Assembly: GCA_021811205.1 (NCBI GenBank)
Contig: JAJZPK010000032.1
Location: forward strand, 1-16,388
Direction: 5' to 3'
DNA from: Pseudomonadota bacterium
GTDB lineage: Bacteria; Pseudomonadota; Gammaproteobacteria; Burkholderiales; JABEVD01
Length of the DNA: 16,388 nt
Shown here: positions 1,793 through 13,955 of the stretch, one piece after another
Position numbering within the stretch: position 1 is the stretch's first letter
Layout of the letters: each line of letters begins with the position of its first letter
The notes under the pieces: generated by a model
What the model saw: the letters and a program-made list of their open reading frames with translations, nothing else
Told to the model about the DNA's origin: nothing
The model's database searches: none
Program-made: the position numbers and the translations under genes

Positions 1793-3046
1793 TCACCAGC
1801 CGTAGGCGATGCCAAGCGAATCCTCGGAAAGGCTGATGTTCGCATTGCCGCCCTGAGGAATCGAATTCGCCCCGATGATCGTATTCTTGAAGGCATGCAT
1901 ATAGGCCACCGAAATTTCGGATTTGTCTGCAAGGGTCCAGGTCGCACCGAGCGCAACATGATCCTGCACCGTGGCCGGCGACATGATGTTGAAAAAGGTC
2001 TGGTCATTCGGGATCTGCTGGCTGTTGTGGCTGTAACCTGCGCGAAGCTTGATCCCCTTGCCGGTATCATGACTCAAGCCGAATTTGTAAACCATCATGT
2101 TTTTCCATCCGAAACCCGCCCCATTGTCCGCGCCCAGATTGAATGGAACGCCTGGAGCGAGCGGATTGGCAATCGTCTTGATGCTGCCGTATTGAATGCT
2201 GTCGACATCTGCTGCCAAAATGGTATCCGCCGTCACCTTGACTGCAATACCGGCCCCGAACGACGCAGGAATATCGAGGGCGCCTTGTTCCGCAAAGAAT
2301 CCTGCGTACTTGGCGAACTTGCTCATCCGGGTTCTGCTCTGATAGGTCGCGCCAAGGGTGACGCCTGGATATACTTCCCCTATCCATCCGATATGAAACC
2401 CGTATCCGGTGGCAGTATCCGTACCATTGTTGCTGACATTTTGCGGCGAAGTGGAATAATTCGCGAACCCCTGGATGCCCTGGGCCGAAAATCGCTGGTA
2501 GGCAAGATTCAGGGAAATGCCGATCGCATTATTCGCACCGATTTTCCTGGACCAGGTGGGCGCCACGAATAGCTGCATCAGATTCACGCCGCCATTGCCT
2601 TGGCCTCCCAGTCCGCCGCCGAAAGGATTCACCGCATAATCACTGTTCATGCCACCGTTGCCGTAGACCGATACGCCTAACGAAGTCTTCCGGCTGATCA
2701 TCCTGTTGTAGCCGAATTCCGGAATGAGAAAATTGGATTTTCCGTTTCCGTCGTAATTGCCGTTGCTGGGCACGCCTGGACCAGGCGTTCCTGCACCGAC
2801 AATCTGGGCACTCCTTGCAGGCCTGAACAAATTCAAACCGAAATCGATCCTGTTGCCCACCATCACCATGCCCGCAGGATTGGTCGCGGCAGCCAGCGCA
2901 TCCTGTGGAAACGCGATGCCGACACCCCCCATTCCATTGGCCTTGATGCCATAGCCTTCAGAAAAATAACCTGTTGTCGCACTTGCTGAGGATGAAACCA
3001 GTATTCCCGCGACCAGCATCGCGTTGAAGATGACGCCTTTCATCAT
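1793..3046 (-). CDS. FadL/OmpP1/TodX-family outer-membrane channel (copy 1)
   Basis: This 417-aa protein begins with a signal peptide (MMKG..., hydrophobic core, cleavage probably after ASA at residue 23), so the mature N-terminus would be TTGYF. The N-terminal hatch signature follows, GMGGVGIAFPQDALAAATNPAG, with the NPAG box at residues 56-59; the rest alternates polar and aromatic residues like a beta-barrel and ends in Tyr-Gly-Trp. The family forms 14-stranded barrels that pass hydrophobic molecules. In sulfur oxidizers, FadL-like proteins have been proposed to take up or bind elemental sulfur, which fits the neighbours, but fatty acids or hydrocarbons remain possible. The start ATG at 3046 is preceded by AGCAGG. 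It is a paralogue of the gene just upstream (3132-4367) and lies beyond that gene's terminator, so it depends on read-through or its own promoter, which I cannot identify. Confidence 0.9.
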   Translation of the reverse strand: MMKGVIFNAMLVAGILVSSSASATTGYFSEGYGIKANGMGGVGIAFPQDALAAATNPAGMVMVGNRIDFGLNLFRPARSAQIVGAGTPGPGVPSNGNYDGNGKSNFLIPEFGYNRMISRKTSLGVSVYGNGGMNSDYAVNPFGGGLGGQGNGGVNLMQLFVAPTWSRKIGANNAIGISLNLAYQRFSAQGIQGFANYSTSPQNVSNNGTDTATGYGFHIGWIGEVYPGVTLGATYQSRTRMSKFAKYAGFFAEQGALDIPASFGAGIAVKVTADTILAADVDSIQYGSIKTIANPLAPGVPFNLGADNGAGFGWKNMMVYKFGLSHDTGKGIKLRAGYSHNSQQIPNDQTFFNIMSPATVQDHVALGATWTLADKSEISVAYMHAFKNTIIGANSIPQGGNANISLSEDSLGIAYGW

Positions 3047-3131: not shown

Positions 3132-4367
3132 TTACCAGCCGTAGGAAATGCCGACCGAATCCTCGGACAAGGTATTGCTGGCTTCGCTTCCCGCAGGGTA
3201 ACCAATACCACCAGGAATAGAATTCACCCCATTGATTGTATTTCTGAAGGCATGCATGTAGAAAGCCGAAATCTCGGATTTGTTCGCCAGCTTCCAGGTC
3301 GCCCCCAGGGAAACGCTGTCCTTCACGATTCCGGGCGCCAGGATGTTGAAGAAAGTCTGGCTTGCATTGTAGGGTTCCTGGTTGTGCGTCCAGCCCGCTC
3401 TCAGCGTCGTTTGGGAATCCCAGTCATAAGAGACACCCAGCTTGTAGACCGTCATGTTCTGCCAGCCGAATCCTGCCCCATAGGAAGCGCCCAGATTGAA
3501 AGGCGGCGTTCCAAGCGGATTCGAAATTGATTTGACATCGCCGTACATGATGCGCTGGACATCAAAACCCACCGTTGTCGCGGGAGCAGCCTTGACCGCG
3601 ATGCCCGCCCCGTACCAGGCAGGAATGTCGAAGCTTCCCTGCTCGGCGAAAAGACCGCTGTACTTGCTGAATTTGCTCATCCTGGTCTTGGTCTGGTAGG
3701 TCGCACCCAGCGTGATATCGGGCGACACCTTGCCTATCCAGCCGATATGCAATCCATATCCGGTTGAAGTGTCTGTGCCATTGTTCGTCAAATTTGTATT
3801 AGAAATCGACATAGGTTGGAAATTTTGCAGGCCCTGTGCGGAAAACATCTGGTAGGCAATGTTCAGCGAGACGCCGACCGAATTGTTTTCATTGATTTTC
3901 TTCGACCAGGTCGGCGCGATGAAGAGCTGCGCAAGATTCACTCCTGCTTCACCTTGTCCAAAATTCGGATTAACTGAATAACTGGTATTCATCCCGCCAT
4001 TGCCGTAGATGGAGACGCCGAGCGAATAATCAGGGGCCATCATCCTGTTGTAGCCGAAGCTCGGAATCGGAAAAATGCTTCTGTCATTACCGCTGAATTC
4101 AGATGTGACACCACCTGCGGTAATCTGCGAGCTTCTGTTCGGATTGAACAGCTCCAAACCCAAATCCGCGCGATTCCCAATCAATACCATCCCGGCCGGG
4201 TTGGTTGCGGCAGCCAGCGAATCCTGCGGGAATGCGATGCCCACCCCGCCCATGCCTTCGGCCTTGATGCCGTATCCGTTTGCAAAATAGCCATTGGTAG
4301 CGTAGGCTGCAGGCGCGATCAACCCTCCCGCAACCAGCATCGAAACAAGCAGTTTTCTTTTCATCAT
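3132..4367 (-). CDS. FadL/OmpP1/TodX-family outer-membrane channel (copy 2)
   Basis: A 411-aa paralogue of the neighbouring protein, with the same architecture: signal peptide cleaved probably after AYA (residue 23), mature start TNGYF, hatch signature GMGGVGIAFPQDSLAAATNPAG with NPAG at residues 56-59, a barrel body and the C-terminus SYGW. The two copies match along their whole length, including blocks such as NNGTD and LHIGWIG/FHIGWIG, so they arose by tandem duplication and then diverged, mostly in loops. The start ATG at 4367 is preceded by GAGAGGGG. Only 38 nt separate it from dsrE2, so it is probably co-transcribed with tusA and dsrE2. That linkage to sulfur carriers favours a sulfur-related substrate rather than fatty acids; this is inference. 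Confidence 0.9.
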   Translation of the reverse strand: MMKRKLLVSMLVAGGLIAPAAYATNGYFANGYGIKAEGMGGVGIAFPQDSLAAATNPAGMVLIGNRADLGLELFNPNRSSQITAGGVTSEFSGNDRSIFPIPSFGYNRMMAPDYSLGVSIYGNGGMNTSYSVNPNFGQGEAGVNLAQLFIAPTWSKKINENNSVGVSLNIAYQMFSAQGLQNFQPMSISNTNLTNNGTDTSTGYGLHIGWIGKVSPDITLGATYQTKTRMSKFSKYSGLFAEQGSFDIPAWYGAGIAVKAAPATTVGFDVQRIMYGDVKSISNPLGTPPFNLGASYGAGFGWQNMTVYKLGVSYDWDSQTTLRAGWTHNQEPYNASQTFFNILAPGIVKDSVSLGATWKLANKSEISAFYMHAFRNTINGVNSIPGGIGYPAGSEASNTLSEDSVGISYGW

Positions 4368-4405: not shown

Positions 4406-4873
4406 TCAAACAAACAGACAGATGTCGGTGTCTCCCGCGAATTCCATGAAGGTCGCCGCGCCGCCGAATTCGATGCCGTCAATGAAATCCTTCTTGTCGA
4501 ATTCGAACAGATCGACAGTCATCTGGCAGGCGACGAATTTCACGTCCGCTTCCTGACACAGGCTTCTCAGCTCCTCGAGGGATGCAACTCCCTTCTTCTT
4601 GAGCTTGTCCTTCATCATCATCGTCGCCATGGACTCCATGCCAGGCAGCATCTGCACGAAAACAGGCATGGGGACAGGCATCGGCATGGCCGGATTGGCC
4701 AGGGGGCTGATCTTGACGTCCGAAAGATCCTTTTTCAGGAGCTGCAGTCCGTAGAAGGTGAAGAAAATCTGAACATCGTACCCCAGGGCAGCGGCAGTGG
4801 ACCCCAGGATGAACGGGGGATAGGCCATGTCCAGCGTGCCCTTCGTGGCGATGATCGCCATTTTCTTGGTCAT
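4406..4873 (-). CDS. dsrE2: DsrE2-type (DsrE/DsrF/DrsH-like) sulfurtransferase protein
   Basis: The 155-aa protein starts MTKKMAIIATKGTLDMAYPP and carries the family's conserved cysteine block VACQMTVDLF (C116), the likely persulfide site; C106 and C152 are additional cysteines. There is a methionine/proline-rich stretch (residues 63-86) with a short hydrophobic segment nearby, typical of DsrE2 and often suspected to associate with the membrane. Length fits DsrE2 (about 155-165 aa). In sulfur oxidizers DsrE2, TusA and often rhodanese are encoded together and exchange sulfane sulfur. Here it lies 10 nt after tusA, with a weak AGGGAT ribosome site in the gap. No rhodanese gene is visible in the window, and no dsrAB or hdr genes. 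Confidence 0.9.
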   Translation of the reverse strand: MTKKMAIIATKGTLDMAYPPFILGSTAAALGYDVQIFFTFYGLQLLKKDLSDVKISPLANPAMPMPVPMPVFVQMLPGMESMATMMMKDKLKKKGVASLEELRSLCQEADVKFVACQMTVDLFEFDKKDFIDGIEFGGAATFMEFAGDTDICLFV

Positions 4874-4883
4874 GTCAGATCCC

Positions 4884-5111
4884 TCACTTCTTCTTCATGA
4901 AGAAGACGTATTCGCCATTTGCTTCGCTCTGCTCAAGCAACTCGTTTCCGGTCTGCTTGGCGAAGGCCTGCATGTCCTTGACGGAACCGCAATCGGTCGA
5001 GACAACCTTGAGTACCTCGCCTGAACCCATGTCGGCCAGCGATTTTTTCGTCTTCAGGATGGGAAGTGGGCAGTTGAGGCCGCGTGCGTCGAGTTCTTTC
5101 TGAAATTCCAT
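4884..5111 (-). CDS. tusA: TusA-family sulfur carrier protein
   Basis: With the start chosen here it has 75 residues, the usual TusA size. The motif LDARGLNCPLPILKTKK holds the persulfide-carrying C14 in the CPLP signature, and a second cysteine (STDCGS) sits in the usual loop. I prefer ATG 5111 because GGAG lies seven bases upstream; a GTG at 5150 would add 13 residues that no TusA needs and has no ribosome site. The protein shuttles sulfane sulfur in the cytoplasm, in sulfur oxidizers towards Dsr or Hdr-type oxidation. It is the first gene of tusA-dsrE2-fadL. Its upstream region carries the paired operator-like sites at 5198-5237, so it is probably controlled by the NarL-like regulator encoded in this window. 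Confidence 0.93.
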   Translation of the reverse strand: MEFQKELDARGLNCPLPILKTKKSLADMGSGEVLKVVSTDCGSVKDMQAFAKQTGNELLEQSEANGEYVFFMKKK

Positions 5112-5130
5112 GTTGGTCTCCGTAAAAAAC

Positions 5131-5165: not shown

Positions 5166-5197
5166 CTATTAGGCGGAATTTGCCGCTCAACCGTCTA

Positions 5198-5213
5198 TAG
5201 CCGAAATGGGTCA
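5198..5213. promoter_or_regulatory. Operator-like 16-bp palindrome, proximal site, tusA side
   Basis: TAGCCGAAATGGGTCA matches the pattern T-A-R-C-C-S-N2-(A/T)-(T/C)-G-G-G-K-N-A shared by four sites in the window. The layout of two 7-bp half-sites around a 2-bp centre is that of NarL/NarP sites (TACYYMT-N2-AKRRGTA), though bases differ. The flanking GTCTATA (5193-5199) is also conserved at the second locus. Confidence 0.6.
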
Positions 5214-5218
5214 TGTCA

Positions 5219-5248
5219 TGATAACCCTCATGGGTTACATGGTTATCA
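5219..5248. repeat. Outer inverted repeat enclosing the distal operator
   Basis: TGATAACC (5219-5226) and GGTTATCA (5241-5248) are exact reverse complements around a 14-nt centre, nested with the distal operator palindrome. The right arm includes the stop codon of the Usp gene. In the Usp mRNA it can fold into a hairpin at the 3' end; there is no T tract, so it is at most a weak terminator or a 3' stabilising stem. Confidence 0.5.
5222..5237. promoter_or_regulatory. Operator-like 16-bp palindrome, distal site, tusA side
   Basis: TAACCCTCATGGGTTA is the most symmetric of the four sites (TAACCC and GGGTTA arms around TCAT). It begins exactly 24 bp after the proximal site, with an 8-nt gap, the same as in the soeA/sensor-kinase region. 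Likely bound by the response regulator encoded at 13281-13955. Confidence 0.65.
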
Positions 5249-8350: not shown

Positions 8351-9082
8351 TTACCATGAAGTGATGTCGTCGAGCGAAGGCTCGCTCTTGGCCGGCTTGG
8401 GCAGAAGTCCGTCCACCTTGAGCGGATTGTCTGCGCGCTCCAGCTCGTCCTCGTGAATCTTGATGTTCGTCTTTCTGCGCGGCAGATAATGATTGGATGG
8501 ATGTGTACCCCATTCGGGCATCAATGCATAGCCGCCGTTTTCCCTGATTGCAACCGACACATTGGATTCGGGATCGTGAATGTCGCCGAAAAGCCGTGCG
8601 CTCGTCGGACAGGCCTTGACGCAGGAAGGCTTCCTGTCTATTTCGGCGAGCGACTGGTCGTAGATGCGGTCCACGCAGAGCGTGCACTTCTTCATCACCT
8701 TCTGTTTTTCGTCGATCTCGCGCACGCCGTAAGGACAGGCCCAGGAGCAATATTTGCATCCTATGCACTTGTCGTAGTCGACGAGCACGATGCCGTCTTC
8801 CTTGCGCTTGTAGGATGCGCCGGTCGGGCATACCGGAACGCAGGGCGGATCCTCGCAATGCAGGCAGGATTTCGGGAAGTGGACGGTCTCCGTGTGCGGG
8901 AATTCGCCCACTTCATAGGTCTGCACCCGGTTGAAGAACGTACCGGTCGGGTCTTGGCCATAGGGACGCTCGTCCACCAGGGGACCCGCGGATCCCGAAG
9001 TGTTCCATTCCTTGCAGCTCGTCACGCAGGCATGGCAGCCGACGCAGACGTTGAGGTCGATCACGAGGGCGAGCTGGGTCAT
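8351..9082 (-). CDS. soeB: SoeB, four-cluster [4Fe-4S] electron-transfer subunit
   Basis: From ATG 9082 the protein has 243 residues. Sixteen cysteines sit in four groups: C13-C16-C19-C23 (CVGCHACVTSC), C73-C76-C81-C85 (CLHCEDPPCVPVC), C106-C109-C112-C116 (CIGCKYCSWAC) and C133-C136-C154-C158, as expected for the NrfC/DmsB type with four [4Fe-4S] clusters. I chose this ATG because it forms ATGA with the soeA stop and is preceded by GGAGGG; an upstream alternative would add ten residues overlapping soeA. It has no signal peptide, so it is cytoplasmic, and it passes electrons from the molybdenum subunit to the membrane anchor. Confidence 0.93.
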   Translation of the reverse strand: MTQLALVIDLNVCVGCHACVTSCKEWNTSGSAGPLVDERPYGQDPTGTFFNRVQTYEVGEFPHTETVHFPKSCLHCEDPPCVPVCPTGASYKRKEDGIVLVDYDKCIGCKYCSWACPYGVREIDEKQKVMKKCTLCVDRIYDQSLAEIDRKPSCVKACPTSARLFGDIHDPESNVSVAIRENGGYALMPEWGTHPSNHYLPRRKTNIKIHEDELERADNPLKVDGLLPKPAKSEPSLDDITSW

Positions 9083-11970
9083 TTTTTCTTCCCTCCGAAA
9101 TAGGCGATCCATGAAGGCCTGGCCTTCATGCCCGGATAAGGCTTCATGGGCTCGAATTGCGGGGAGCTCACTTCCTCGCCCGCTTCGGCCTTGTAGATGC
9201 GCACGCGCACATCATACCAGGCGGCCTGCCCCGTGATCGGATCGGAATTGGAATGACGCAGCCCTTGCCTGTTCTCGGGCAGCTCTTCTGAAATCAGATG
9301 GTTGAGCAGGAAGCCCTTCTGCGATTCGTTGGCATCCGGGGTGAGGTTCCATGCCCCCGCTGCCTTGCCTATGGCATTCCATGTCCACACCGTTCCCGGT
9401 TCGACCGCTTCCGAATAGCGCGCCATGCAGCGCACCTTGCCCCATTGCGATTCGACCCAGATCCAGTCGCCGTCGGAAATCCCAGACGATTTGGCAGTGG
9501 CGGCATTCACGTAAAGATAATTGTAGGTATGGATCTGGCGCAGCCATGCGTTCTGCGAATCCCATGAATGGTACATGGCCATGGGACGCTGGGTCACTGC
9601 TGCAAGCGGATACTTGCCCTTGTCGCTCATCTGCGCTTCCAGAGGCTCGTAAAAGAACGGCAGCGGATCGAAATAGCTCTCCACGCGCTTTGCAAGATGC
9701 TCAGGGGGCTTGCGGGTAATTCCTCTGCCCTGGGCTGCCAGCCTGAATTTCTGCAGCACCTCGGAATAAAGGTGGATCAGGATGGGCTCGGAATAGCGCG
9801 TGATCCTGTTGCGCTGCGACCAGTCGAGATAGCCCTTGTTCCAGTTGCGCATGAACTGGTAGGAGCGCGGCAACTCGTAATGGAACACGCAATTGTTCTG
9901 AGCGTACATTTCCCATTGCTTGGGATTGGGCTCGCCGCGCATGAATTTCTCCCCCCCCTTGCCTCTCCAACCGGAAAGGAAGCCTATCCCCGAGCCGGGC
10001 TCGGTCTCGAAATTCACGATAAAGTCAGGATAATCCCGGTATTTCCGCCGCCCTTCCGGGGTGACGAAAGCGGGAAACTTGAGCCGTGTACCGAGTTCGA
10101 TCAGCACTTCCTGGAAAGGCTTGCAATCCCCGGTAGGCGGCATGATCGGAATCCTGACCGAATCGACCGGCCCGTCGAATTCGGAAATCGGACGATCCAG
10201 CATGGACATCACGTCATGACGTTCGAGATAGGTCGTGTCCGGCAAGATCAGGTCGGCGAAAGCGGTCATCTCCGAATGGAAGGCATCGCAGACGACGAGG
10301 AAGGGAATCTTGTATTCGCCGTCTTCCTTCTTGTCGTTCAGCATCTGCCGCACCTCCTGGGCATTCATGGTCGAGTTCCAGGACATGTTGGCCATGAAGA
10401 TCAGGAGGGTATCGATCTCGTAGGGATCGCCTCTCCAGGCATTGGTGATGACATTGTGCATGAGGCCATGCACGGAAAGCGGATACTCCCAGGAAAAGGC
10501 CTTGTCTATCCTGACGGGTTCGCCATTCTCGTCGACGAACAGGTCGTCAGGATCGGCCGGCCAGCCAAGCGCCAGGCCGTCGAGCGGATGATTGGGTTTC
10601 ACCGCGAGCGGACTGTTTGGCGTTCTCGCGCAGGGCGGAATCGGGCGCGGAAAAGGTGCCTTGTGGCGGAATCCGCCCGGTCTGTCGATGGTACCCAGAA
10701 TGGTCATCAGGATGGACATCGCCCTGATCGTCTGGAAGCCGTTCGAATGGGCTGCGAGTCCCCTCATGGCATGAAAGGCCACCGGATTGCCGACGACGGT
10801 ATCGTGCTCCTTCCCCCAGGAATCGGTCCATGCGATAGGCAGTTCGATTTTCTGGTCGCGCGCCGTGATGCCCATTTCATGCGCAAGGCGCTTGATGGTT
10901 TCAGCCGGAATGCCGGTGATCGCGCTCGCCCATTCCGGGGTGTAGTCCTTTACCCGCTCCTTCAGGAGCTGGAAGGCCGGCTTGACCGGCGTGCCGTCGG
11001 GCAAGTTGAATTCCCCGAAAAGGTAGGGGTCCGCCCCCTCGGTGTGCGTGATGACCGGCTTGCCGGTATTCCTGTCCCACCACAGCTTGTTCTGGGGATC
11101 GTAGCAGGCTTCCTCTTCAGGCACTTCGGTGCGCACAAACATGCCGAATTCGTCATGCGCGGCATCGAGATTCACGAGCTGCCCGGAATTCGTGTAGCGC
11201 ACCAGGAAGTCTCGATCGTAGAGGCCAAGCGCGATGATCTCGTGGATCAGCGCGAGAAACAACGCACCGTCCGTGCCCGGCCTGATCGGCACCCATTCGT
11301 CCGCGATCGCGGAATAGCCGGTTCTGACAGGATTGATTGAAATGAATCGCCCGCCTTCCCTCTTGAACTTGGAAATCGCAACCTTGAGCGGATTCGAATG
11401 ATGGTCCTCTGCGGTTCCGATCATGACGAACAGCTTGGCGCGCTCGAGATCCGGCCCGCCGAATTCCCAGAAAGACCCGCCTATCGTGTAGATCATCCCT
11501 GCAGCCATGTTCACGGAGCAGAAACCGCCATGCGCCGCATAATTGGGCGTACCGAACTGGCGAGCAAAAAGCCCTGTCAGGGCCTGCATCTGGTCACGCC
11601 CGGTAAAGAGCGCGAATTTCTTGGGATCGGTCGAACGGATTTTTCCGAGGCGATCTGCAAGGATGCCGTAGACTTCCTCCCATTCTATTTCCTCGAATTC
11701 TCCTGCACCGCGCTCGGCTCCTGCCTTTCTTCTGAGCGGCTTGGTGAGACGGGCAGGCGAATACTGTTTCATGATTCCGGACGAACCCTTCGCGCAGATC
11801 ACCCCGCCGTTCAGCGGATGGTCAGGATTGCCGTCGATGTAACGAACTTCCCCATCCCTGATATGGACGCGTATGCCGCAGCGGCAGGCGCACATGTAGC
11901 AGGTCGTGTTGCGTATTTCGGATTTCGCTTCCGGGACTGTAGGATCGTGAAGCGGGGTTGATGATGACAT
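9079..11970 (-). CDS. soeA: SoeA, molybdopterin catalytic subunit of cytoplasmic sulfite dehydrogenase
   Basis: A 963-aa DMSO-reductase-superfamily protein. The N-terminal [4Fe-4S] site is C24-x2-C27-x3-C31-x27-C59 (CYMCACRC, then GGVICAKG). C151 in HGGFCSVNM is at the usual position of a cysteine ligand to molybdenum. PIRPGTDGALFLALIHE marks the central molybdopterin region and the C-terminal guanine-dinucleotide domain begins near residue 790 (VTQRPMAMYHSWDSQNAW). There is no twin-arginine signal, so the enzyme stays in the cytoplasm; this separates SoeA from periplasmic polysulfide or tetrathionate reductases. SoeABC oxidizes sulfite to sulfate with quinone as acceptor. An AAGG lies seven bases before the ATG. 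It is the first gene of the six-gene operon; the promoter region holds the paired operator-like sites. The call of substrate rests on family resemblance and context. Confidence 0.9.
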   Translation of the reverse strand: MSSSTPLHDPTVPEAKSEIRNTTCYMCACRCGIRVHIRDGEVRYIDGNPDHPLNGGVICAKGSSGIMKQYSPARLTKPLRRKAGAERGAGEFEEIEWEEVYGILADRLGKIRSTDPKKFALFTGRDQMQALTGLFARQFGTPNYAAHGGFCSVNMAAGMIYTIGGSFWEFGGPDLERAKLFVMIGTAEDHHSNPLKVAISKFKREGGRFISINPVRTGYSAIADEWVPIRPGTDGALFLALIHEIIALGLYDRDFLVRYTNSGQLVNLDAAHDEFGMFVRTEVPEEEACYDPQNKLWWDRNTGKPVITHTEGADPYLFGEFNLPDGTPVKPAFQLLKERVKDYTPEWASAITGIPAETIKRLAHEMGITARDQKIELPIAWTDSWGKEHDTVVGNPVAFHAMRGLAAHSNGFQTIRAMSILMTILGTIDRPGGFRHKAPFPRPIPPCARTPNSPLAVKPNHPLDGLALGWPADPDDLFVDENGEPVRIDKAFSWEYPLSVHGLMHNVITNAWRGDPYEIDTLLIFMANMSWNSTMNAQEVRQMLNDKKEDGEYKIPFLVVCDAFHSEMTAFADLILPDTTYLERHDVMSMLDRPISEFDGPVDSVRIPIMPPTGDCKPFQEVLIELGTRLKFPAFVTPEGRRKYRDYPDFIVNFETEPGSGIGFLSGWRGKGGEKFMRGEPNPKQWEMYAQNNCVFHYELPRSYQFMRNWNKGYLDWSQRNRITRYSEPILIHLYSEVLQKFRLAAQGRGITRKPPEHLAKRVESYFDPLPFFYEPLEAQMSDKGKYPLAAVTQRPMAMYHSWDSQNAWLRQIHTYNYLYVNAATAKSSGISDGDWIWVESQWGKVRCMARYSEAVEPGTVWTWNAIGKAAGAWNLTPDANESQKGFLLNHLISEELPENRQGLRHSNSDPITGQAAWYDVRVRIYKAEAGEEVSSPQFEPMKPYPGMKARPSWIAYFGGKKK

Positions 11971-12005: not shown

Positions 12006-12064
12006 GCCAAGACCGGCCACTCGGGAACCCCGTTATTAAGCGCAATCGACGCCCCAGGTGTCTA

Positions 12065-12080
12065 TAACCGTATCGGGTGA
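12065..12080. promoter_or_regulatory. Operator-like 16-bp palindrome, soeA-proximal site
   Basis: TAACCGTATCGGGTGA, the counterpart of the site at 5198-5213, preceded by the same GTCTATA flank (12060-12066). It lies between soeA and the divergent sensor kinase gene, so it could serve both. Confidence 0.6.
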
Positions 12081-12088
12081 GAAGGTCA

Positions 12089-12104
12089 TAACCCGCATGG
12101 GGGA
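12089..12104. promoter_or_regulatory. Operator-like 16-bp palindrome, sensor-kinase-proximal site
   Basis: TAACCCGCATGGGGGA, the counterpart of 5222-5237. It again begins 24 bp after its partner with an 8-nt gap. Over the whole 45-bp block (12060-12104 against 5193-5237) I count 31 identical positions without gaps. Confidence 0.6.
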
Positions 12105-12124: not shown

Positions 12125-12152
12125 TTGCAAGGAGTGACAAATAATTTATAAT
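12125..12152 (+). promoter_or_regulatory. Candidate promoter of the two-component operon
   Basis: TTGCAA (12125-12130), 16-nt spacer, then a perfect TATAAT (12147-12152). Transcription would start near 12159, at or past the first possible start codons (12157/12160), which bears on the start of the kinase gene. The paired operator-like sites would be centred about 63 and 87 bases upstream. Confidence 0.6.
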
Positions 12153-12195
12153 CGTTGTGATGAGCGCAGCCGTGAAGGAATCCGTTCCGGAAAAC

Positions 12196-13284
12196 ATGCC
12201 CTCGAACAGAGACGAATGCTCGACGCTGGCCGAAGGATTTCTGGGAACGATAGCAAAGATGACCGGCGCCATAGCTGGCGCGGTGCGCGTCCTTTCCGAC
12301 GATGGAAAGGAGATGCACCTGATAGGCTCCTTCGGCCTGGAGGAAGAAGTCGTCGAATGCGAGAGCACCACCGACAGCAGCTGCGGCGCCTGCGGTGCTG
12401 CCTTGCGTGAGCTGGAAGCACGCTTCGCAGGCGTGAAGACCTGCATGCTCCGCAACGGCAGGAATTTCTTCGGCAAAGGATGCAAAAGCATGGTTGCCGT
12501 TCCGCTCGTGGCCAAAAGCAAAACGATAGGCAGAGTCGACCCCTTTTTTTCCTCTCCGAAGACGATTCCGGAAGAAACCGAAAAAAACCTGTATTTCCTG
12601 GGCGAATTGCTCGCCATCGCGCTGGACAATTCGAGGCGCGCCAGGGAAAGCCGGCGCGCTGGCATCGTCACCGAGCGCCGCTGCATGGCCAACGAAATCC
12701 ACGATTCCCTGGCCCAGAACCTTGTATTCGCAAGAATGCGCATGAGCCTGTTGAACGAGGCGATCAGATCCCACAATGACGAACTCGCCGGAAAATACGT
12801 GAACGATGTCACCGAGGCGCTCTCTTCCGGCCAGCGCGCAGTTCGCGAGCTGATCACCCATTTCCGCAGTCCGATGGATCCGCTCGGACTCGAACATGCG
12901 CTGCGCGAACTCGTCGAGGAATTCAAGAAGCGCAGCGGACTCCCCCTGGAATTCAGCAACCGCGTTGCGGAATTCGACCTCCCCGTCGAGTACGAGCTTC
13001 AGGCATTCAACATCGTGCGCGAAGTGCTCGCCAACATCGCCGCACATTCCAGCGCCAGTTGCGCGCGCCTTGCCGTTTGCCGCAATGCCGAACAATTCGT
13101 GTTCGTCGTCGAAGACAACGGCTCCGGCATTCCAGACAGCGCGCCGGGCGAAGGGCATTACGGCCTCACGATCATGCGCGAGCGCGCGATGAAAATGGGC
13201 GGCACGCTCGAGGTGGAAAGTGCATGCGGCAAAGGCACCAAAGTGAAGCTGAGCATCCCCTGCAGTCCGGAGAAATTATCATGA
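12196..13284 (+). CDS. Soluble GAF-domain sensor histidine kinase, NarX-like (HisKA_3)
   Basis: With ATG 12196 the protein has 362 residues. An N-terminal GAF-like domain (about 10-145) contains a cysteine cluster C55-x7-C63-x2-C66 (CGAC), then C83 and C96. A HisKA_3 dimerisation domain follows with NEIHDSLAQNL (H169 phosphoacceptor), and an HATPase domain with an N-box-like NIVREVLANIAAHS, DNGSGI (307-312) and GHYGLTIMRERA. There is no membrane helix, so it senses something in the cytoplasm. The cysteines suggest a redox, iron-sulfur or persulfide signal; this is inference. ATG 12160 or GTG 12157 would add 12-13 residues but lack a ribosome site and coincide with the predicted transcript start, whereas GGA lies just before 12196. 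It overlaps the regulator gene by ATGA and is divergent from soeA. Confidence 0.88.
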   Translation: MPSNRDECSTLAEGFLGTIAKMTGAIAGAVRVLSDDGKEMHLIGSFGLEEEVVECESTTDSSCGACGAALRELEARFAGVKTCMLRNGRNFFGKGCKSMVAVPLVAKSKTIGRVDPFFSSPKTIPEETEKNLYFLGELLAIALDNSRRARESRRAGIVTERRCMANEIHDSLAQNLVFARMRMSLLNEAIRSHNDELAGKYVNDVTEALSSGQRAVRELITHFRSPMDPLGLEHALRELVEEFKKRSGLPLEFSNRVAEFDLPVEYELQAFNIVREVLANIAAHSSASCARLAVCRNAEQFVFVVEDNGSGIPDSAPGEGHYGLTIMRERAMKMGGTLEVESACGKGTKVKLSIPCSPEKLS

Positions 13285-13955
13285 CCGAAACCATCCGACT
13301 CGCCCTTGTCGACGACCATTGCCTCTGTCGGCGTGGACTCACAGAACTCTTCGATCATTGCTATGGCATTTCAGTGGTCGGAGGAACGGGAAATGCATCG
13401 GAAGTCATTCCCATCCTTCGGGATAAGCAACCCGATCTCCTGATCATGGATTTGCGCATGGAACCCGTCGATGGACTGACGATTCTCGACCAGATCAGGA
13501 AAGCGGGCATAGACACGCCTGTCGTCATCCTGACGATGAGCGATTCCGAGTCCGATCTTGCCGCTGCAATGCGACTCGGAGCGAAAGGCTATCTTCTGAA
13601 GGACATGGATCCTGAAGACGTCGTCAATGCGGTGCGACGCATCGCCGCCGGAGAACTTGTCGTCGCTCCTGCCATGACCATGAAACTGATGAATTTTCTG
13701 CAAAACGGCCAGCAGGAGCAGGTGCGCAAGAATTCACTGGAACTGCTGACGGATCGGGAACGCGAAATCCTTCAGCATTTGGCGCGCGGAGAAAGCAACA
13801 AGGTCATCGCCAGGACGCTCGACATCAGCTACGATACCGTCAAGCAGCATGTCAGGCATATTCTCTTCAAACTCAAGCTCGCATCACGTGTGGAAGCGGC
13901 CGTTTTCGCCGTGGAACAAAGGGCGAGCGAGCACCGGGTCAGTACCGGACACTAA
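13281..13955 (+). CDS. NarL/FixJ-family response regulator
   Basis: A 224-aa protein with a receiver domain (residues 5-122: acidic pocket D11 D12, phosphoacceptor D57 in LLIMDLRM, T85 and K107 as switch residues) and a C-terminal LuxR/GerE helix-turn-helix (about 154-215: LTDREREILQHLARGESNKVIARTLDISYDTVKQHVRHILFKL in three helices). Phosphorylation by the partner kinase should allow dimerised DNA binding. The gene overlaps the kinase stop by four bases (ATGA). Palindromes with NarL-like 7-2-7 geometry in front of soeA, this operon and tusA are the best candidates for its targets. Target assignment is inference from spacing and context. The stop codon overlaps the convergent msrA stop by three bases. 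Confidence 0.93.
   Translation: MTETIRLALVDDHCLCRRGLTELFDHCYGISVVGGTGNASEVIPILRDKQPDLLIMDLRMEPVDGLTILDQIRKAGIDTPVVILTMSDSESDLAAAMRLGAKGYLLKDMDPEDVVNAVRRIAAGELVVAPAMTMKLMNFLQNGQQEQVRKNSLELLTDREREILQHLARGESNKVIARTLDISYDTVKQHVRHILFKLKLASRVEAAVFAVEQRASEHRVSTGH

Follow-up and report, generated by a model that had tools for sequence, protein, structure and literature searches.

The window analysed here, by which we mean the whole stretch of 16,388 nucleotides, carries two look-alike non-coding blocks in front of tusA and soeA, and the question it raises is what these blocks are and which protein reads them. An earlier note on this DNA had described two 16-bp imperfect palindromes 24 bp apart at 5193..5237, the same pair in the same order and with the same 24-bp offset at 12060-12104, and 31/45 identical bases in an ungapped comparison of the blocks; the coordinates and sequences proved exact and a recount gave the same identity. 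In block A, which lies between the end of a usp gene (5246) and the start of tusA (5114), the starts of TAGCCGAAATGGGTCA (5198-5213) and TAACCCTCATGGGTTA (5222-5237) are 24 bp apart, and in block B, which is flanked by the start of soeA (11970) and that of the divergently oriented kinase gene (12157), TAACCGTATCGGGTGA (12065-12080) and TAACCCGCATGGGGGA (12089-12104) have the same order and offset. The best ungapped 45-mer in 1000 pairs of dinucleotide-shuffled intergenic regions reached 20-27 identities, and 0/1000 came to 31/45. When a matrix built from the four sites was run over the window, only these four positions scored above 15 (20.0 for TAACCCTCATGGGTTA), the next best, 10.7, lying inside tusA. 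The likeness of the blocks runs 25 bp past the left edge first drawn, up to an ATTAGG/ATTAAG box at 5168 and 12035. An RNA element was rejected as an explanation of the blocks, since no Rfam match was found within the window.

Block A faces tusA (4884..5114, minus strand; Pfam TusA, E 3.8e-24), the first gene of a tusA-dsrE2-fadL-fadL unit in which dsrE2 (4406..4873, minus strand) scores 283.6 bits with the NCBIfam model SulfCarrDsrE2, exceeding its cut-off of 210. Block B faces the gene of a soeA-like molybdenum oxidoreductase (9079..11970, minus strand; molybdopterin oxidoreductase matches), which heads a soeABC-tauE-(138 aa)-usp unit; among the 25 families shown for this protein none is above a curated cut-off, and the name soeA is that of the earlier note.

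Comparison with related loci identifies both blocks as copies of one conserved, predicted promoter module of about 70 bp, facing tusA and soeA, of which each 45-bp block makes up the upstream half. For this comparison 79 loci were fetched from genome contigs with 21 aligned kinase sequences (best 80 of 84 stretches), and a pattern search in them gave 71 modules, the two of the window included (72 matches, of which a spurious one at L030 was dropped); 70 module rows were aligned. The order is operator, 6-9 bp, operator, a -35-like TAGAC(A/G), 17-18 bp and a -10-like YYTAAT, in which the operators are two 16-bp 7-2-7 inverted repeats of the type TARCCC-N4-GGGYTA with starts 22-25 bp apart, and the -35-like element abuts operator 1 without a gap. 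Read the opposite way, the module is GGYTA-TAGACA-N17/18-YYTAAT and is directed away from the kinase gene. Module A on the minus strand thus comprises the distal operator 2 (5222..5237), the proximal operator 1 (5198..5213), the -35-like TAGACG (5192..5197) and, after an 18-bp spacer, the -10-like CCTAAT (5168..5173) of the predicted tusA promoter. Module B, likewise on the minus strand, comprises operator 2 (12089..12104) and operator 1 (12065..12080), both placed by the matrix scan and the alignment of relatives, the -35-like TAGACA (12059..12064), placed by the flank count and the 70-row alignment, and, again after 18 bp, the -10-like CTTAAT (12035..12040) of the predicted soeA promoter. 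The GTCTATA flank that the earlier note had counted with the operator block is present at both places, but it forms the -35 side of the promoter, so that GTCTA is better read as a promoter element than as part of an operator.

The spacing of the sites is itself conserved. A symmetric matrix made from the four sites of the window was scanned over the loci of 78 relatives (1.28 Mb, L001 left out), and pairs with both sites at 7 or more numbered 9, 11, 11 and 18 at offsets of 22, 23, 24 and 25 bp, against 0-3 at each of the other offsets from 16 to 60. Among the 76 loci in which the kinase gene is preceded by 150 bp or more (L001 was excluded, and L028 and L077 were too short), 53 have a pair scoring at least 14 upstream of it; the figure for control stretches of 1140 bp is 43/1665, true tusA or sqr modules being present in some of these. 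No pair scoring 10 or more was found upstream of the kinase in 16/76 loci, among them L058, L061 and L063, where the module lies on the other side of the regulator gene. Two flanking elements that were not used in choosing the pair accompany it, GTCTA next to the pair in 48 of the 53 loci and ATTA at a fixed distance in 49 of them, and these are the fair counts of flank conservation. In the 70 aligned rows ATAGAC is conserved at 98-100% per column, a figure which, like that for ATTA, is partly imposed because the gathering pattern fixes parts of ATTA and GTCTAT; the -35/-10 spacer is 18 bp in 60/70 rows and 17 bp in 10/70. The operator pair is also kept before tusA in L001, L002, L003, L005, L019 and L026, and in L004 it is kept but displaced from tusA. 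In that locus (about 630-2880; L218) a gene that by eye is transposase-like separates the module from tusA by about 2.2 kb.

A scan with the plain sigma-70 consensus found no promoter in module A and, near module B, only that of the kinase gene itself. The -24/-12 pattern of sigma-54 promoters occurs in 1/70 module rows, and a sigma-54 promoter was therefore rejected. The earlier note had likened the sites to those of NarL; the geometry of a 16-bp 7-2-7 inverted repeat holds, but the half-sites depart from the NarL heptamer consensus TACYYMT at position 3, which is A or G in 7/8 half-sites of the window (C in one) and mostly A/G in the relatives. If transcription starts 7 bp after the -10 element, the operators would be centred at about -44.5 and at -66.5 to -69.5, and in module A at about -44.5 and -68.5 of the tusA promoter. 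This arrangement bears on the sign of control. NarL-type proteins can both activate and repress, and operator 1, abutting the -35 element, has a position compatible with either sign, so that dimers at -44.5 and -68.5 might instead keep the promoter shut, by blocking or looping it, as long as no sulfur signal releases them. We hold such repression to be unlikely, because both operators of the 70 aligned modules are situated upstream of the -35 element and none over the -10 element or the start, because the hexamers are poor, as in activator-dependent promoters, and because NreC, the nearest sulfur example that has been tested, activates sqr and pdo (excerpted text of PMC9918477).

With the module defined, its targets could be followed over whole genomes by means of a profile, R1, which was built from the 70 modules and models sequence only; its E-values are rough. 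To the left of the kinase gene the 79 loci carry soeABC, in its absence tauE, or else tusA-dsrE2, and some have none of these, as seen in a search with the window proteins only. The first gene behind the 71 modules encodes a calcineurin-like phosphoesterase in 35 cases and an FAD enzyme akin to sulfide:quinone reductase in 11; it is tusA (with dsrE2) in 13, soeA in 3, tauE in 3, and another gene or none in 6, as called by a picker that favoured long frames; the target calls in whole genomes were made by homology instead. In L119 two HdrA-like proteins, whose genes we take to be qmoA and qmoB, are encoded after the phosphoesterase. At E<=0.01 R1 matched 37/48 genomes of relatives. In the first set of these, the genomes from which 28 of the 79 loci come, 25/28 genomes were matched (those of L071, L072 and L073 were without), with 83 sites at 1-5 per genome; in the second set, most of which had been picked for unclear status or distance, 12/20 genomes were matched with 24 sites, and target classes were counted in the first set only. 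After removal of the 34/83 sites that were training rows (29 by script, 5 by coordinates), 45 of the 49 sites left in the 25 genomes adjoin dsr, sat, soeA, tusA-dsrE2, soxY, petA or phosphoesterase genes: the dsr cluster with divergent dsrA (10; G005:C18:170795 falls in a dsr cluster), soeA with divergent sat (9), sat alone (6), soeA (5), tusA-dsrE2 (10), soxY (2), petA (1) and phosphoesterase (2). Of the other four, two adjoin a gene that by eye is rhodanese-like (G005 and G025; no phosphoesterase is present at G025:C32:46360), one lies near a cytochrome and an fccB relative (G007), and one is a second site in the interval from phosphoesterase to kinase (G011). Six further sites had E-values of 0.01-0.1; inspection by eye placed five of them at, or next to, dsr, sox, soeA/sat or pet genes, and the sixth, at a porin gene in G010 (E 0.034), probably arose by chance. 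At two of the sites outside the main target classes (L117, about 3965, and L067, about 9510) the gene downstream of the promoter is by eye rhodanese-like, and possibly represents one more target. L080-L109 were read without regard to orientation.

Among the products of these genes DsrA, Sat, SoxY, SoxZ and the Rieske protein score above their NCBIfam cut-offs and DsrC above that of its subfamily, and the sqr-like protein passes no NCBIfam cut-off. The matches at sat alone and most of those at soeA/sat stop short of the canonical -35/-10, covering just positions 2-46 or so of the model; since only the operator half matches, the promoters at these sites differ, and at sat alone the match is oriented away from sat. 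Single genomes have sites before several unlinked operons, as expected of a regulon for sulfur oxidation: G006 has phosphoesterase-qmo, tusA, dsr, petA and soeA sites across four contigs, and G001 has soeA, tusA, dsr and sat sites across two. Thus the local regulon of tusA-dsrE2-fadL and soeABC-tauE-usp proposed before gives way to a genome-wide one that also takes in dsr, sat, sox, sqr-like, pet and qmo-linked genes. On the points of refutation that sequence can address, the earlier note is supported. The random scatter that would have spoken against it was not seen, with 1-5 sites per genome in 25/28. Its expectation of the motif before orthologous soeA and tusA held for the module-bearing genomes; in other genomes the motif is absent before soeA, which fits a clade-specific regulator.

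The proposed reader of the module is encoded next to block B. A sensor histidine kinase (12157..13284, plus strand) with Pfam matches to an N-terminal GAF, HisKA_3 and HATPase_c is followed by a NarL-type response regulator (13281..13955, plus strand; PDB 1a04, NarL, E 1.9e-47), the putative operator binder. The GAF match starts at residue 24, which leaves no room for a membrane sensor before it, and in the kinase no PAS domain was matched at E<=0.001 and GAF_2 is present; the scores of 151.5/553 bits for NarQ and 130.1/578 bits for NarX do not place the kinase with those nitrate sensors, in which two transmembrane helices enclose a periplasmic nitrate-binding domain. The regulator is of NarL/FixJ type, with a receiver domain and a LuxR-type helix-turn-helix (Pfam Response_reg, E 2.4e-25; GerE, E 2.8e-19), stays below the cut-off for strict NarL (NCBIfam NF007935, 216.9 bits vs 250) and has no AAA+ domain in Pfam. 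Among the 792 relatives of the kinase, those named in the matches listed belong to Burkholderiales, Gallionellaceae, Nitrosomonadales and Betaproteobacteria. Three cysteines of the kinase are conserved in an alignment of 102 rows, Cys76 in 95, Cys79 in 86 and Cys96 in 99, with Cys109 in 48; the signal sensed may be redox or persulfide. The AlphaFold model of the kinase (mean pLDDT 79.6) has DesK-type kinase cores as its best structural matches and gives little firm guidance on the cysteines. The two genes have a separate sigma-70-like promoter (TTGCAA-16-TATAAT, 12125..12152, plus strand; 10/12 consensus bases), which is found in the window and in L001, L002, L003, L019 and L026 and not in L004. 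Because the kinase gene has this conserved promoter of its own and the module points away from it, autoregulation is not indicated, a correction to the earlier note, which had counted the two-component genes in the regulon; the near-consensus promoter suggests that the regulator is supplied steadily and controlled through phosphorylation. In the window (12125-12160) and the same five loci the distance from the end of TATAAT to the start codon is 4-7 bp, so short that the kinase mRNA may be leaderless.

Whether a genome has the module goes together with the kind of regulator it encodes. On a tree of 76 module-positive and 25 module-negative regulators, made from all rows by a quick method, the presence of the module requires 5 changes against a shuffled mean of 22.6; in this tree unsearched genomes were labelled positive by their locus and L028 on one match with E 0.008. 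An earlier, hand-labelled tree gave 2 changes against a shuffled mean of 16.7, a result flattered by the omission of ten loci, namely L023, L024, L028, L031, L032, L057, L062, L068 and L077, of unclear status, and the cut-off L016. The clustering supports the claim that the NarL-type regulator of the window is the likely controller of the predicted sulfur regulon. The 11/48 genomes without an R1 match at E<=0.01 include three with regulators like those of module-bearing genomes (L057, L068 and L077), three that adjoin L066 on long branches (L071, L072 and L076) and five distant ones (L073, L074, L075, L078 and L079). The recognition helix reads TVKQHVRHIL in most module-positive regulators, as against TVKLHVRHIL or something close to it in the sister group and TVKVHVKHML in NarL; the Q/L residue is among those with which NarL contacts its bases. 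The operator in turn departs from NarL sites at position 3, which makes the residue a lead rather than a test. Q versus L as the sole determinant was rejected, for the four regulators of L066, L164, L166 and L175 are module-positive and carry L.

In the sister group a siroheme synthase gene lies next to the regulator gene in 5/12 loci read (L180, L182, L183, L184 and L186), together with genes for a CbiA-type and an IscA-type protein in L180, a pyridine-nucleotide disulfide reductase in L184 and an IscA-type protein in L186; by eye none of these genes was seen in the other 7/12. Such genes resemble dsrN and dsrR of dsr clusters. DsrR is cited as involved in the regulation of sulfur oxidation (excerpts of PMC11406059).

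The specificity of the module was further seen across 300 genomes of the order, in a scan with stricter filters than those used for the 28 genomes. R1 matched 17 of the 300 at E<=0.001, 8 of these 17 being also in the first set. A re-search with laxer filters of 40 of the 41 kinase-bearing genomes without a match (G293 was left out) gave 0/40 at E<=0.01, which is a recheck rather than an independent control, as the 40 had been chosen as negatives of the same scan. The kinase class, cut at a visible score gap (at least 262 bits; the next score is 246.8 bits, mostly from longer proteins), occurs together with dsrA in 57 genomes, the kinase alone in 0, dsrA alone in 7 (dsrA being found in 64/300) and neither in 236; Fisher's p of 5e-54 is too small, being inflated by shared ancestry. 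Of the 17 module genomes all have dsrA and 16 have the kinase; G220, which may be incomplete, has three sites and no kinase of the high-scoring class. In G279 soeA and the kinase gene have one in-frame stop each and are pseudogenes or carry assembly errors. The idea that the module is merely carried along with soeA was rejected: soeA (E<=1e-150) is found in 82/300 genomes, and the module is found in 17, of which 10 have soeA. A search for TA...TA palindromes in 20 upstream regions of soeA from module-free genomes (19 from genomes with the kinase class; one region of only 297 bases) turned up no pair, its only matches being two single AT-rich ones, in L201 and in L202. By eye, the soeA upstream regions of L201, L202, L203, L205, L212 and L213 share another AT-rich stretch, TATCAA...CTTATA...TATAAATAAAT or similar, perhaps the promoter of the sister group. 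Nitrate control, as automatic names such as NarX would have it, was rejected for this clade, since the targets are sulfur genes and 57/57 kinase genomes have dsrA.

These distributions also bear on whether a different protein, such as another LuxR-type regulator, a TspR-like sigma-54 activator or a repressor, binds a real shared promoter and operator, the kinase and regulator genes being mere neighbours. Binding is predicted here from the sequence, G220 has sites without a high-scoring kinase, and the TspR site TGTCCCAAATGGGACA is also a 16-bp CCC-N4-GGG palindrome (excerpted text of PMC6335251); these points are outweighed by the clustering of the module on the tree of response regulators, by the kinase in 16/17 module genomes, by the 15 module-free kinase genomes placed on the tree, which carry sister-group regulators, by the -24/-12 pattern in just 1/70 rows, and by the module lying in most loci between the kinase gene and a divergent target, whichever this is (soeA, tauE, tusA or the phosphoesterase). 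Another binder is improbable. Short motifs recur by chance, but chance similarity, or a dispersed repeat copied between the two intergenic regions, is refuted by the 0/1000 shuffles, by a spacing spectrum peaked at 22-25 bp and by sites in 25/28 genomes with 45/49 untrained ones beside sulfur-pathway genes, and has practically no probability left.

Accordance with known systems is partial. In Bacillus licheniformis NreB/NreC activates sqr and pdo on sulfide, and phosphorylated NreC binds DNA better (excerpts of PMC9918477); there, as is predicted here from sequence alone, a kinase and a response regulator activate sulfur-oxidation genes. According to the same excerpts, however, that kinase senses via PAS, perhaps with haem, whereas the kinase here has a GAF domain with three conserved cysteines, and the targets there are sqr and pdo in a firmicute, whereas the sites here extend across dsr, sat, soe, tus, sox and pet genes. 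The likeness to NarX/NarL and NarQ/NarP of Escherichia coli lies in the full-length alignment of the regulator with NarL (1a04), in the 16-bp 7-2-7 inverted repeat and in the C-terminal part of the kinase, which matches the NarQ and NarX models. NreC, too, is a NarL-family protein. Unlike NarX/NarQ, the kinase of the window has no sensor region before GAF, and unlike NarL sites, with C in the consensus at position 3, the operators here have mostly A/G, face sulfur genes and are paired at near-fixed spacing. In Acidithiobacillus caldus RsrS/RsrR and TspS/TspR control tetH/tqo and the sox-II cluster, TspR being sigma-54 dependent (excerpts of PMC6335251). That is likewise two-component control of thiosulfate oxidation via inverted-repeat sites, but the site sequences quoted in the excerpts differ from those of the module and, as opposed to TspSR, the regulator of the window has no AAA+ domain and 1/70 rows has the -24/-12 pattern. 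In Hyphomicrobium denitrificans thiosulfate oxidation genes are controlled by sHdrR and SoxR, which differ in being ArsR-type repressors without a kinase (excerpts of PMC12423496). In the open-access literature searched, no NarL-type regulator or operator was found for dsr, soe or tus genes in these bacteria, nor any named regulator for the Dsr, Apr/Sat and Soe route genes of sulfur oxidizers.

Considering the position of the modules, the targets belong to one regulon, and we assume that they are activated in the following way. The soluble GAF kinase would sense an intracellular sulfur or redox signal and phosphorylate the neighbouring NarL-type regulator. Two dimers of the latter, bound to the operators near -44.5 and -68.5, would then bring RNA polymerase to a promoter whose hexamers are weak. 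As the module stands before tusA-dsrE2, soeABC, the dsr cluster, soxYZ, sqr-like genes, petABC and phosphoesterase-qmoA-qmoB, and the operator pair also beside sat, much of the route by which sulfane sulfur becomes sulfate would be turned on by a single regulator. The predicted module, its geometry, the target list, the clustering on the regulator tree and the association with dsrA are seen in the sequences compared; the identity of the binder, activation over repression, the signal and the start sites are put forward as what these suggest. We regard the module as a genuine, conserved promoter switch of the sulfur-oxidation regulon in a group of sulfur- and iron-oxidizing bacteria, one that the linked two-component system very likely reads, and we consider it probable that this GAF kinase and its NarL-type partner act via the paired 7-2-7 operators as activators of such a regulon across the genome. 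A wider proposal, to which we lean with less assurance, is that the soluble GAF-kinase/NarL-type pair is a general control system of sulfur oxidation by reverse dissimilatory sulfite reductase in this betaproteobacterial order, near one-to-one with dsrA and reading the sulfur or redox state via the conserved CxxC...C, one clade using the two-operator cassette and the sister clade, partly beside siroheme-synthase and DsrN/DsrR-like genes, having switched its operator.

A candidate regulator, a predicted operator, a promoter geometry and a target list are now named, so that the question of control becomes testable. They bear on the switch to thiosulfate in iron oxidisers, Sideroxydans among them. 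Thiosulfate induces dsr and sox, but not tsdAB, in Sideroxydans lithotrophicus ES-1, a strain with the same species name as the source of L061, and the excerpts of PMC8788666 name no switch for the induction of dsr and sox. The near one-to-one occurrence of the kinase with dsrA could serve as a marker in metagenomes.

Some minor features accompany these genes. In the window two tandem genes for FadL-type outer-membrane proteins (1793-3046 and 3132-4367), parts of which are 73-81% identical in DNA, follow dsrE2, and a perfect loopless 52-bp palindrome with 26-nt arms (1726-1777) separates the convergent genes tauD and fadL; it may be a terminator that works in both directions or an artefact of assembly. 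In L113 (3811-4609) and in orthologs beside dsr in other genomes, a DUF6967 protein and a Pfam Cas6 match (PF09559, E 1.2e-52), the name of a CRISPR family within a dsr cluster, are found between the dsr module and dsrC.
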